A stretch of DNA of 64,000 nucleotides from Saccharibacillus endophyticus (GTDB taxonomy: Bacteria; Bacillota; Bacilli; Paenibacillales; Paenibacillaceae). The notes beneath the pieces were generated by a model, which was not told the origin of the DNA, searched no databases, and saw nothing but the letters and a program-made list of their open reading frames with translations. The stretch is taken from assembly GCF_013185185.1 (NCBI RefSeq), contig NZ_JAAZWE010000007.1, forward strand, positions 248,001 to 312,000, written 5' to 3'. The stretch's first letter is position 1. Every line of letters begins with the position of its first letter. The position numbers and the translations under genes are program-made. This document shows positions 2,527 through 62,798 of the stretch, in pieces.

Positions 2527-4041
2527 ATGACAAGATTCAAAGTGGCTTTTATCGGTGCGGGAAGTATCGGATTCACGCGGGGACTGCTGCGCGACTTGCT
2601 CAGCGTGCCCGAGTTTGCGAATATCGACGTGTCGTTCATGGATATCGACCGCCGCAATCTCGATATGGTGACGGAACTGTGCCAACGGGATATCGACGAG
2701 AACGGACTTTCGATCAAGATACGTCCGACGACGAACCGGCGCGAAGCTCTGCAAGGAGCCAAGTACGTATTTTGTACAATCCGCGTCGGCGGGCTGGAAG
2801 CGTTCGCGACCGACGTGGACATTCCGCTCAAGTACGGCGTCGATCAGTGCGTCGGCGATACGCTGTCGGCGGGCGGCATTATGTACGGACAGCGCGGCAT
2901 CGCCGAGATACTGGAGATCTGCCGGGATATCCGGGAAAAGGCGGCGCCGGACGTCTTGCTGCTCAACTACTCCAATCCGATGGCGATGCTCACCTGGGCA
3001 TGCAACGTCTACGGCGGCGTGAAAACGATCGGCTTGTGCCACGGCGTTCAGCACGGCCATCATCAGATCGCGGAAGTATACGGGCTGGATAAAAAAGACG
3101 TGGATATTATCTGCGCGGGCATCAATCATCAGACGTGGTACATCTCCGCTGCGCACGAAGGCCGCGATCTGACGGAAGGGCTGCTGGAAGCGTTCGAGAA
3201 ACACCCGGAATACAGCCGCACGGAAAAAGTCCGGATCGATATGCTGCGCCGCTTCGGCTACTACAGCACGGAATCGAACGGCCATCTGAGTGAATACGTG
3301 CCATGGTACCGCAAACGCAGCGACGAGATTCAGGACTGGATCGATCTGGGCAGCTGGATCAACGGCGAGACGGGCGGTTATCTGCGCGTATGTACCGAAG
3401 GGCGCAACTGGTTCGAGACCGATTTTCCGAACTGGCTCAAAGACCCGGCTTTCGAATACGGTGAGGGGCATAGGGGCGAGGAACACGGTTCGTATATCGT
3501 GGAAGGCTTGGAAACGGGACGCGTGTACAGAGGGCATTTCAACACGATCAACGGCGGCGTGATTACCAATCTGCCGGCCGACGCGATTATCGAAGCACCG
3601 GGCTACGTCGATCGCAACGGTATCTCGATGCCGGTCGTCGGCGATCTGCCGCTCGGAGCGGCTGCCGTGTGCAACGTGAGCATCTCCGTTCAGCGCTTGG
3701 CAGTGGAAGCGGCGGTACGCGGCGACGACAAGCTGCTGCGCCAAGCCTTCATGATGGACCCGCTCGTCGGTGCCGTGTGCAATCCGAAAGAAATCTGGCA
3801 GATGGTCGACGAAATGCTGGTAGCCGGGGAGAAGTGGCTGCCGCAGTACGGCGACGCCATTGCGGAAGCGAAGAAGCGGCTGGCTTCCGGCGACCTGATC
3901 CCGACCCGCGAAGGCAACCAAGGCGCGGCGCGCCTCAAAGTGAAGTCGGTCGAAGAAATGCAGCAGGACCGCGAAGCGGCGAACAAAAACGCGGGCGAGT
4001 CGGACAAAGGCAAAGACCGGGAGAAAGTGACGCAGGATTAA
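2527..4041 (+). CDS. Glycoside hydrolase family 4 enzyme (alpha-galactosidase/alpha-galacturonidase type)
   Basis: A 504-residue cytoplasmic enzyme of the NAD+- and Mn2+-dependent GH4 family. Visible motifs are the Rossmann loop GAGSIGFTRG (residues 10-19), the metal/sugar motif NYSNPMAM (147-154), the metal-binding C171-H172-G173-V174 and the NHQTW motif with H201. In GH4 the residues after Cys track specificity: CHSV is typical of MelA-type alpha-galactosidases, and CN or CD motifs of 6-phospho-glycosidases. CHGV here therefore points to non-phosphorylated alpha-galactosides or galacturonides. The C-terminal 30 residues are charged and low-complexity, beyond the usual family end near 450. 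A strong GGAGGGGATCTTC site precedes ATG. It is probably regulated by the adjacent AraC protein. Exact substrate is uncertain. Confidence 0.88.
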   Translation: MTRFKVAFIGAGSIGFTRGLLRDLLSVPEFANIDVSFMDIDRRNLDMVTELCQRDIDENGLSIKIRPTTNRREALQGAKYVFCTIRVGGLEAFATDVDIPLKYGVDQCVGDTLSAGGIMYGQRGIAEILEICRDIREKAAPDVLLLNYSNPMAMLTWACNVYGGVKTIGLCHGVQHGHHQIAEVYGLDKKDVDIICAGINHQTWYISAAHEGRDLTEGLLEAFEKHPEYSRTEKVRIDMLRRFGYYSTESNGHLSEYVPWYRKRSDEIQDWIDLGSWINGETGGYLRVCTEGRNWFETDFPNWLKDPAFEYGEGHRGEEHGSYIVEGLETGRVYRGHFNTINGGVITNLPADAIIEAPGYVDRNGISMPVVGDLPLGAAAVCNVSISVQRLAVEAAVRGDDKLLRQAFMMDPLVGAVCNPKEIWQMVDEMLVAGEKWLPQYGDAIAEAKKRLASGDLIPTREGNQGAARLKVKSVEEMQQDREAANKNAGESDKGKDREKVTQD

Positions 4042-36367: not shown

Positions 36368-36559
36368 GCGGAGGGAGAAATTCAGTGAAATACAGGTTTT
36401 CGAAGAAAACCTGCGGTAACATATATGAAAATGTTGGCCTTTGAACTCGGAAAACTCCTTATTTAAATCTAATTCAACTTTTCCGAGAGAGACAGCGTCT
36501 TGTGAAGCATTTCGAAGAAATGCACTTCGGAAGCCTATGCTGGTAATTTCTCCCTCCGC
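36368..36559. repeat. Dispersed palindromic element, copy C (long form)
   Basis: Arms GCGGAGGGAGAAATT (36368-36382) and AATTTCTCCCTCCGC (36545-36559) are exactly complementary over 15 bp. The inner part has GGCCTTTGAACTCGGAAAA, its partner TTTTCCGAGAGAGACAGCG, and a block GAAGCATTTCGAAGAAATGC that is the reverse complement of part of copy B. B and C are therefore the same long variant in opposite orientation. It occupies the whole gap between the MCP terminator and the end of the ABC gene. Confidence 0.8.
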
Positions 36560-39179: not shown

Positions 39180-39193
39180 AAATTTTTCCCCCT

Positions 39194-39310
39194 GATGCCT
39201 ACGGAGTTAGCTAAGGGTTCGGTGGTAGGAATTTCCCTATACTCCCTCTGGAACAAGAATAATTCACCCGCAATGGTTCCCCCGTTTTCTTGCAAAAGAA
39301 ATTCGGCATT
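39194..39310 (-). ncRNA. Cyclic di-AMP riboswitch (ydaO-yuaA class)
   Basis: On the minus strand the sequence has the ydaO-class landmarks in order: ATGCC (closing stem), GGGGGAACCATTG, GGGTGAATTATTC, GGGAAATTCCTACC, CGAACCC and TTAGCTAACTCCGTAGGC. ATGCC (39305-39309) pairs with GGCAT (39195-39199). It ends 15 nt before the NlpC/P60 start codon. The class turns off gene expression when c-di-AMP is high and is commonly found in front of wall hydrolase genes. Confidence 0.9.
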
Positions 39311-39334
39311 TATTAATATTTTGTAACTATTGAT

Positions 39335-56950: not shown

Positions 56951-56974
56951 GAATATCCTGTTCGTGGAGGCGCT

Positions 56975-57065
56975 GCGGGGGAAATTCGTTCAAGACGCTG
57001 TCTCACGCAGAAAGCCTACGGCTTTCCGCGTTCAAAGGCGTCTTTCACTGAATTTCCCCCTCCGC
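56975..57065. repeat. Dispersed palindromic element, copy D (short form)
   Basis: Family arms GCGGGGGAAATTC and GAATTTCCCCCTCCGC with AAGACGCTGTCTCACGC and its partner GCGTTCAAAGGCGTCTTTC. Inner tip GAAAGCC/GGCTTTC. Orientation is reversed relative to copy A. Confidence 0.8.
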
Positions 57066-57178: not shown

Positions 57179-57292
57179 GCGGAGGGTGAAAATTCAGTGA
57201 AAGACGCCTTTGAGCCCAAGAATGTATGATTTGAATATATTCAAATCATACATTCTTGGGCGAGACAGCGGCTTGAACGAATTTTCACCCGC
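57179..57292. repeat. Dispersed palindromic element, copy E with a perfect 46-bp palindromic tip
   Basis: Arms GGAGGGTGAAAATTCAGTG and CGAATTTTCACCCGC with AAAGACGCCTTTGAG and CGAGACAGCGGCTTGAA. The central tip is a perfect palindrome from 57215 to 57260, starting CCCAAGAATGTATGA and ending with its reverse complement, unlike the tips of the other copies. It is 113 bp from copy D. Confidence 0.82.
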
Positions 57293-57361: not shown

Positions 57362-57428
57362 GATTTTTGAATTGGGGGGTCCGGTTGGTAGTCGGCTGTG
57401 ATACAATGTTGTACGGTGTTCGGTCTGT

Positions 57429-57573
57429 AGTACCTTGTCAACGCTAAAAGTAAGATTACGTTTGGCTGAGATTTCGTACCTAAACCGTGCACGAAGTCTC
57501 CAACGGAAACAAACCTAAAGCGTGTTTGTTTCAGCCAAACGTAAACCTCTGATTAAGAGTTGAAAGGGTAGTA
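57429..57573. repeat. Nested inverted-repeat element upstream of dgk
   Basis: Outer arms TACCTTGTCAAC (57431-57442) and GTTGAAAGGGTA (57559-57570) pair at 9 of 12 positions. Inner arms TTACGTTTGGCTGA (57456-57469) and TCAGCCAAACGTAA (57531-57544) pair perfectly. The right side reads CGTAAACCTCTGATTAA, close to the right side of the element upstream of dck. The element ends 81 bp before the dgk start. No open reading frame of note is inside. Confidence 0.7.
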
Positions 57574-57653
57574 GATCGACGCCTTATTTTTTCGAAACGA
57601 AAGCCGCCGATCAAGGCAAGTTCAAAGGCGGCAGCGGAGGCAGGAGGATTTTT

Positions 57654-58292
57654 ATGAATCAAGTTCCTTTTATCGCGGTCGAAGGCGCGATCGGGGCAGG
57701 CAAGACGACGCTTGCTTCGATGTTGGCCGCGGAGTTAGATATGCCTTTGCTCAAAGAAATCGTCGAGGAAAACCCGTTCATGGAGAGATTCTATCAGAAC
57801 CTGGACGAATGGAGTTTTCAGCTTGAGATGTTCTTTCTGTGCAATCGGTACAAGCAGCTCGGCGATACCGAATCCAAGTTGATCCGGCAGGGGCAGCCCG
57901 TCGTGTCGGATTATCATATTTACAAAAACCTGATTTTCTCCGAACGCACGCTCAAAGGGCGCGAACGCGAGAAGTATCGGCAGATCTATCATGTGCTGAC
58001 GGACGACCTGGCAAAGCCGGATATCATCGTGTACATCAAGGCTAGCCTGGAAACGCTGCTCGCCCGGATCGCCAAGCGCGGCCGTTCATTCGAGCAGGAT
58101 ATGGATCATGCTTACCTGGAGCAGTTGATCGAAGATTACGAATCGGCCATGTCTTCGCTTGCTGTCACGGAGCCGGAGACTACGATTATCACGGTTGACG
58201 GGGATTCGACGGATTTCGTTGCGGACCCGGAACATTTTGCCCATATTGTCTCGCAAGTCAAATCGCGTATCTCCAGCGGTCATCCCCGCTGA
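57654..58292 (+). CDS. dgk: Deoxyguanosine kinase
   Basis: A 212-residue deoxynucleoside kinase of the dCK/dGK family: P-loop GAIGAGKT (11-18), the EIVEENPF region of the substrate site, LDEWSFQLEMFFLCNRYKQ lid partner, and a VVSDYHIYKN motif in place of the DRS motif of the dCK type. Length and motifs match the B. subtilis Dgk branch. It salvages purine deoxynucleosides; the adjacent gene covers pyrimidine and adenine deoxynucleosides. AGGAGGATTTTT precedes ATG. A structured repeat lies in the leader. Confidence 0.92.
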   Translation: MNQVPFIAVEGAIGAGKTTLASMLAAELDMPLLKEIVEENPFMERFYQNLDEWSFQLEMFFLCNRYKQLGDTESKLIRQGQPVVSDYHIYKNLIFSERTLKGREREKYRQIYHVLTDDLAKPDIIVYIKASLETLLARIAKRGRSFEQDMDHAYLEQLIEDYESAMSSLAVTEPETTIITVDGDSTDFVADPEHFAHIVSQVKSRISSGHPR

Positions 58293-58328
58293 TTGCCTGC
58301 TTGCCGTTTACCGGAAGCAGAGCCCTAT

Positions 58329-58430
58329 TACCATGACCGCTTAAGATGTTAGCTTACGCCCATCGGAAACCCACTTGAACCTTGCGTGTTTCCGATGAGC
58401 GTAAACCTTGGATTTGATGCGGTCAAGGTA
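58329..58430. repeat. Nested inverted-repeat element between dgk and dck
   Basis: Outer arms TACCATGACCGC (58329-58340) and GCGGTCAAGGTA (58419-58430) pair at 11 of 12. Inner arms TTACGCCCATCGGAAAC (58354-58370) and GTTTCCGATGAGCGTAA (58388-58404) pair except one position. The right side CGTAAACCTTGGATTTG matches the skeleton of the element before dgk, but the stem sequences are different. It ends 41 bp before dck. Confidence 0.7.
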
Positions 58431-58471
58431 CTATTTCAAGTTATTCAAACAGAAGGAGTCTGACTTTAACG

Positions 58472-59140
58472 ATGACACAAATTTCTATTCCCTCCGATGC
58501 GCTGATTACGGTAGCCGGTACAGTAGGCGTGGGCAAATCGACGCTTACGGCTGCTCTTGCCCAGCGCCTTGATTTCCGGACTTCGCTGGAGAAGGTTGAC
58601 CATAACCCGTATTTGGAAAAGTTTTATCACGATTTCGAACGCTGGAGCTTCCATCTGCAAATCTACTTCCTCGCGGAGCGTTTTAAAGAACAAAAAGCGA
58701 TCTTCGAAGCGGGCGGCGGTTTCGTGCAGGATCGTTCGATCTATGAAGACACCGGAATTTTCGCCAAAATGCACGCCGACCAAGGCACGATGTCCGCAGT
58801 CGATTACGAGACGTATTCGAGCCTGTTCGAAGCGATGGTAATGACGCCTTATTTCCCGCATCCGGACGTTCTTATTTATCTGGAAGGCAGTCTTCCGTCG
58901 ATTCTCGGACGCATTACGGAGCGGGGTCGCGAGATGGAGATTCAGACCGAAGTGACGTACTGGGAAAAGATGCACGGACGTTACGCGGATTGGATCGGCA
59001 GTTTCGACGCTTGCCCGGTATTGCGTCTCAATATTGACGAATACGACGTAAACGATCCTTCTTCGTTGGATGACATCATTTCCAGAATCGGAGTCGCTAT
59101 TCAAGAATCGCGCAGGGCCAAAGCAAGCTTGAACGTCTAA
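58472..59140 (+). CDS. dck: Deoxyadenosine/deoxycytidine kinase
   Basis: A 222-residue deoxynucleoside kinase: P-loop GTVGVGKST (16-24), FYHDFERWSFHLQIYFLAERF, and the D-R-S motif in QDRSIYEDTGIFA that is standard in the dCK branch. Same family as dgk next to it, from an old duplication. It salvages deoxyadenosine and deoxycytidine. AGAAGGAGTCTGAC precedes ATG. The pair order (dgk then dck) and the interposed repeat mean that dck may have its own transcript. Confidence 0.92.
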   Translation: MTQISIPSDALITVAGTVGVGKSTLTAALAQRLDFRTSLEKVDHNPYLEKFYHDFERWSFHLQIYFLAERFKEQKAIFEAGGGFVQDRSIYEDTGIFAKMHADQGTMSAVDYETYSSLFEAMVMTPYFPHPDVLIYLEGSLPSILGRITERGREMEIQTEVTYWEKMHGRYADWIGSFDACPVLRLNIDEYDVNDPSSLDDIISRIGVAIQESRRAKASLNV

Positions 59141-62707: not shown

Positions 62708-62798
62708 GCGGGAGAAATTCGGTAAAGACGCTGTTTCGCTCGGAAAGCCTCCGGCTTTCCGGACTCAAAGGCGTCTTGACCTGAATTTCTCCCTCCGC
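62708..62798. repeat. Dispersed palindromic element, copy F (short form)
   Basis: Arms GCGGGAGAAATTC and GAATTTCTCCCTCCGC, AAGACGCTGTTTCGCTCGG and its partner CAAAGGCGTCTTGACC, tip GAAAGCC/GGCTTTC. Near-twin of copy D and directly behind the L,D-transpeptidase stop codon. Confidence 0.8.

Follow-up and report, generated by a model that had tools for sequence, protein, structure and literature searches.

BOX elements of Streptococcus pneumoniae are modular: their ends are constant and the number of their central units varies. Among the bacterial MITEs whose transcripts fold are Correia/nemis, ERIC, RUP and YPAL (Delihas 2007, PMC2229807; reviewed in PMC10969869). In the Bacillus cereus group, the mobility of the bcr repeats has been tied to TTTAT repeats and possible site-specific recombination (PMC6542083).

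The element family of Saccharibacillus described here resembles Correia/nemis, ERIC, RUP and YPAL in being 100-200 bp long, in having terminal inverted repeats with TA at both ends, in duplicating its target, in lying between genes and in a predicted transcript that forms one long stem-loop. Its size, its inverted repeats, the duplicated target and the predicted folding of its transcript place it with the bacterial MITEs, the likeness observed being one of features. Unlike these four families, the Saccharibacillus element duplicates a 4-bp CTAG-type target and comprises subfamilies with swapped complementary arms and 0, 1 or 2 apical hairpins. Compared by architecture, it is modular as BOX elements are, but what varies in it is a single hairpin tip carried by one nested stem. 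It shares with the bcr1 repeats the character of a lineage-restricted, dispersed Gram-positive repeat with tens of copies per genome (PMC6542083), and differs from them in its 4-bp CTAG duplications. The IS5-like insertion sequences of Saccharibacillus have the genus and the 4-bp CTAG target in common with the element, but not the ends. In the papers searched, we found neither an earlier description of the family nor a paper on the repeats of Saccharibacillus.

The two elements upstream of the kinase genes

The window, i.e., the whole stretch of 64,000 nucleotides of S. endophyticus DNA analyzed, contains two copies of the element (Table 1). Both share the skeleton TACC...TTACG(stem)...CGTAAACCT-NN-GATT...GGTA, with stems that differ between the two and are self-complementary in each. 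Their minimum free energies corresponded to z-scores of -6.0 (element 1) and -7.2 (element 2), and none of the shuffled sequences folded as stably. The description in the earlier note of one skeleton with both stems exchanged and pairing kept is thus confirmed, as is the position of the elements in front of deoxynucleoside kinase genes, since the two downstream genes matched the Pfam family dNK (PF01712) with E-values of 1e-49 and 1e-62. Element 1 is present as that note had it, except that it was given a single apical hairpin; it has two, which make a three-way junction that had been overlooked. No Rfam family matched over its gathering score at the two elements in the window or at five loci with other copies.

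Table 1. Positions of the elements, the kinase genes and other features in the window.
Feature	Position	Strand	Remarks
Element 1	57431-57570	+ (strand shown)	140 nt, long form, two apical hairpins; covariance-model match, E 2.3e-16
Element 1, left target-site duplication	57427-57430	.	GTAG
Element 1, right target-site duplication	57571-57574	.	GTAG
Element 1 with target duplications	57427-57574
Element 2	58329-58430	+ (strand shown)	Standard 102-nt form, one apical hairpin, outer-arm type GACCGC; covariance-model match, E 7.9e-20
Element 2, left target-site duplication	58325-58328	.	CTAT
Element 2, right target-site duplication	58431-58434	.	CTAT
Element 2 with target duplications	58325-58434
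Deoxynucleoside kinase 1 (dgk-like)	57654-58292	+	Pfam PF01712
Deoxynucleoside kinase 2 (dck-like)	58472-59140	+	Pfam PF01712
TACAAT, putative -10 box of dgk	57402-57407	+	From alignment; conserved both in relatives that have the element and in those that lack it
Near-perfect long inverted repeat GCCCAAGAATGTATGATTTGAA...TTCAAATCATACATTCTTGGGC	57213-57262		Between dgk and the preceding gene
Second dispersed repeat, GAATTTCCCCCTCCGC and relatives	56972-57065; also 36368-36559 and 62783-62798
c-di-AMP riboswitch (ydaO/yuaA leader)	39181-39318	-	Rfam RF00379, 70 bits

Dispersal, termini and target sites of the family

The exact skeleton CGTAAACCTN{1,3}GATT was found 11 times in the genome of S. 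endophyticus, and its reverse not once. Aligning 31 copies gave a consensus structure with 28 pairs, compensatory changes being seen in 17 of them, and the covariance model built from this alignment and run on the same genome returned 142 strand matches, which correspond to at least 96 distinct places (E <= 0.01, 150 candidates scored). The earlier note had itself named the occurrence of the same elements at many unrelated loci as the result that would tell against a kinase-specific RNA, and the roughly 96 places are that result. The copies sit near or between genes in every orientation, and the orientation of the adjacent genes was unbiased (32 both forward, 26 both reverse, 21 convergent and 19 divergent). 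The family was present in 10 of 17 Saccharibacillus genomes and absent both from 84 relatives of other genera and from a family sample of 280 genomes outside the genus (the two samples may overlap), and the plasmid and phage collections searched contained no match to the element. By eye, several copies lie inside the stem or loop of a hairpin resembling an intrinsic terminator (L006 at ~1500, L169 at 3644-3753 and L002 at ~1500). The second dispersed repeat of the window, of the GAATTTCCCCCTCCGC type, had 47 matches with at most 2 mismatches in ~1.12 Mb of S. endophyticus DNA, where the reversed pattern had none.

Three forms of the element were distinguished. The standard form is 102 nt long (TACCTTGNC...GNCAAGGTA) with one apical hairpin, the short form lacks this hairpin and measures ~79 nt with flanks, and the long form, to which element 1 belongs, is 147-148 nt with the three-way junction. 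The long form also occurred at five other places examined in the S. endophyticus genome and in S. sacchari, with similar hairpin tips, and one further copy of this length was among the covariance-model matches in S. endophyticus. The result is a new family of MITEs in which the apical hairpins are modular and number 0, 1 or 2.

The ends of the element are terminal inverted repeats (TACCTTGTCAAC/GTTGACAAGGTA and variants), and the 102-nt sequence has no coding capacity, any given frame being open in at most 10 of 123 copies. Among 149 copies, the 4-nt flanks of TACC...GGTA proved to be direct repeats, with 416 matching bases against 338.7 ± 6.9 after shuffling (reached in 0 of 5000 shuffles), while inverted matching of the same flanks was at chance (339 against 337.9). 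Perfect 4-bp duplications were found in 39 of the 149 copies; the consensus is CTAG, and 20 of these 39 are not CTAG. A duplication of TA only within CTAG, as in the IS630 type, was rejected because the flanks match above expectation at their outer C and G too. Tandem copies are spaced by 106 nt and have one CTAG in common. In S. sacchari, a filled site (G007:C1:1539904) could be compared with the empty site AAGCTAGGTGTTGG of the S. endophyticus genome, which carries a single CTAG; this is the only clean empty site, the others being blurred by later change. Because dispersal, termini, direct repeats, empty kinase loci in relatives (see below) and the lack of coding capacity have been shown, elements 1 and 2 are very probably two insertions of a non-autonomous DNA transposon (MITE) found only in Saccharibacillus. 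It counts against this assignment that the arms within the terminal inverted repeats vary among subfamilies, as is not usually seen when a single transposase moves a MITE; the single clean empty site and the outcome of the transposase search below count against it as well. The element would insert at CTAG-like sites with duplication of 4 bp of target, presumably moved by a DDE-type transposase supplied in trans.

In the 1.56 Mb of DNA searched, no long element combining matching ends with a transposase was found, and none of the DDE_Tnp_1 genes of the genus was bounded by the ends of the element. As mobilizer, an IS701-type DDE_5 transposase (PF13546) was rejected, PF13546 being absent from the genus, and so were the IS5-like elements with CTAG duplications, the ends of which differ (e.g., GGCGTGTCTTCAAAAT instead of TACCTTGTCAAC). 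These IS5-like insertion sequences (L269, L272 and L275) are 829-856 bp long, have CTAG target duplications and match at 14-15 of 16 terminal bases. The only plausible long pair in the 1.56 Mb was discarded as well: the gene that its two MITE copies enclose does not resemble a transposase. This gene, a 402-aa ORF that looks like a nucleotidyltransferase, lies between two inverted copies (L001, 1480-2982), each of which has the same CCAG on its outer side; the arrangement may be a composite transposon or a product of chance.

Movement as a REP/RAYT-type palindrome, in which a Y1 (HUH) transposase would act on single-stranded hairpins, would accord with a short palindromic unit in many copies, with the GTAG start of some copies and with a structure biased to one strand. 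We nevertheless regard it as very unlikely: the Y1_Tnp domain (PF01797) was not found in the S. endophyticus genome, whereas 5 of 14 control genomes were positive, and the element has 4-bp direct target duplications. Single-strand transposition by HUH enzymes is not known to make direct target duplications.

The kinase loci in related genomes

The dgk and dck genes were located in ten other Saccharibacillus genomes; for eight of these, the locus was aligned with the window. Both elements were missing in seven of the eight. The two genes are separated by one base in three relatives (G001, G004 and G005) and by a short spacer without the element in four (G002, G003, G009 and G010). Only S. sacchari (G007), which is 93% identical, holds both insertions, each reduced and with the core missing: element 1 remains as TAGTACCTTGTCAACGCT and AAGGGTAGTAG, and element 2 has lost 36 nt of its core. 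As the kinase loci of the relatives are empty or reduced, the insertions are lineage-specific and the structured core is dispensable at dgk and dck.

The putative -10 box of dgk (GTGATACAAT) was kept in the aligned relatives whether or not the element is present, and element 1 probably sits in the dgk leader, just 3' of this box. Both elements lie 5' of dNK genes and fold strongly, and element 1, following the conserved putative -10 box, is probably transcribed; these points would suit the cis-regulatory RNA specific to deoxynucleoside kinase genes that the earlier note had proposed. Such an RNA is extremely improbable, however, given ~96 copies genome-wide, target duplications, orthologous loci that are empty or decayed and so reveal no conserved association with dNK genes, and wobble pairs on the strand opposite to the kinase mRNAs (see below). 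The insertions at dgk and dck are very probably incidental and would confer no kinase-specific regulation.

Covariation and the folded strand

Among 123 copies of equal length, at least two Watson-Crick types, each in at least three copies, were found at 23 of 36 pairs. Comparison of 60 sister pairs showed 80 double changes at paired columns, 50 of which left Watson-Crick pairing intact, whereas the eight slid controls gave 2-6. The outer-arm types, including GTCAAC, GACCAA, GACCGC and GTCTCA, each face their own complement. The covariation seen earlier between two copies as a sign of conserved structure is therefore real and extends to the whole family. The complementary arms and the inner hairpin are maintained by such compensatory changes.

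The wobble pairs distinguish the two strands. On the strand shown, the stems had undergone 96 A·C against 38 G·T events (56 sister pairs; p = 6e-7). The outer arm alone gave 23 A·C and 13 G·T, which is not significant (p = 0.13). With columns 35-37 left out, the inner and middle stems still had 44 A·C against 22 G·T. The test is good but not clean, as one of the eight slid controls (+1) also showed an excess, 48 against 9. A·C on the strand shown is G·U on the opposite one, and thus an RNA, if selected, would be read antisense to dgk and dck. The apical hairpins on that opposite strand share a similar tip, ACACG..UUAGGU.

It is possible, and we entertain it tentatively, that the element is a MITE whose covariation stems from DNA mechanics, namely template switching that corrects imperfect palindromes and the fitting of both ends to one transposase, instead of selection for a folded strand. 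The frequency of compensatory double changes between close copies and the weak wobble bias of the outer arm agree with such an origin. Template switching and end recognition are strand-blind, yet the inner stems had 55 A·C against 15 G·T on the strand shown (p = 1.7e-6). Furthermore, the A·C excess arises from G-C and A-T pairs alike, unpaired sites lack a corresponding bias (A/G 87, C/T 71), and in 113 of 123 copies the opposite strand had the more stable predicted fold (mean -50.8 against -43.1 kcal/mol), a count whose p-value cannot be taken literally as the copies are related.

Judged from the aligned copies, the wobble evidence favors a folded structure on the strand opposite to that shown (-), and most probably this strand would have to fold, as a transcript or as single-stranded DNA, for the element to persist. 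The folded strand may be single-stranded DNA with G·T pairs. Alternatively, we tentatively suggest a mobile element transcribed from one strand into a structured RNA under selection, which the element needs in order to spread or which is tolerated for its effects on host transcripts; the element would then be more than a transposase substrate.

A family of insertions can pass for a conserved regulatory element, since two copies that covary within one genome are paralogous repeats; here, the false lead of an RNA switch for nucleoside kinases has been removed. The strand-specific wobble signal offers a simple test, for other MITE families too, of whether a folded strand or only a DNA palindrome is under selection.
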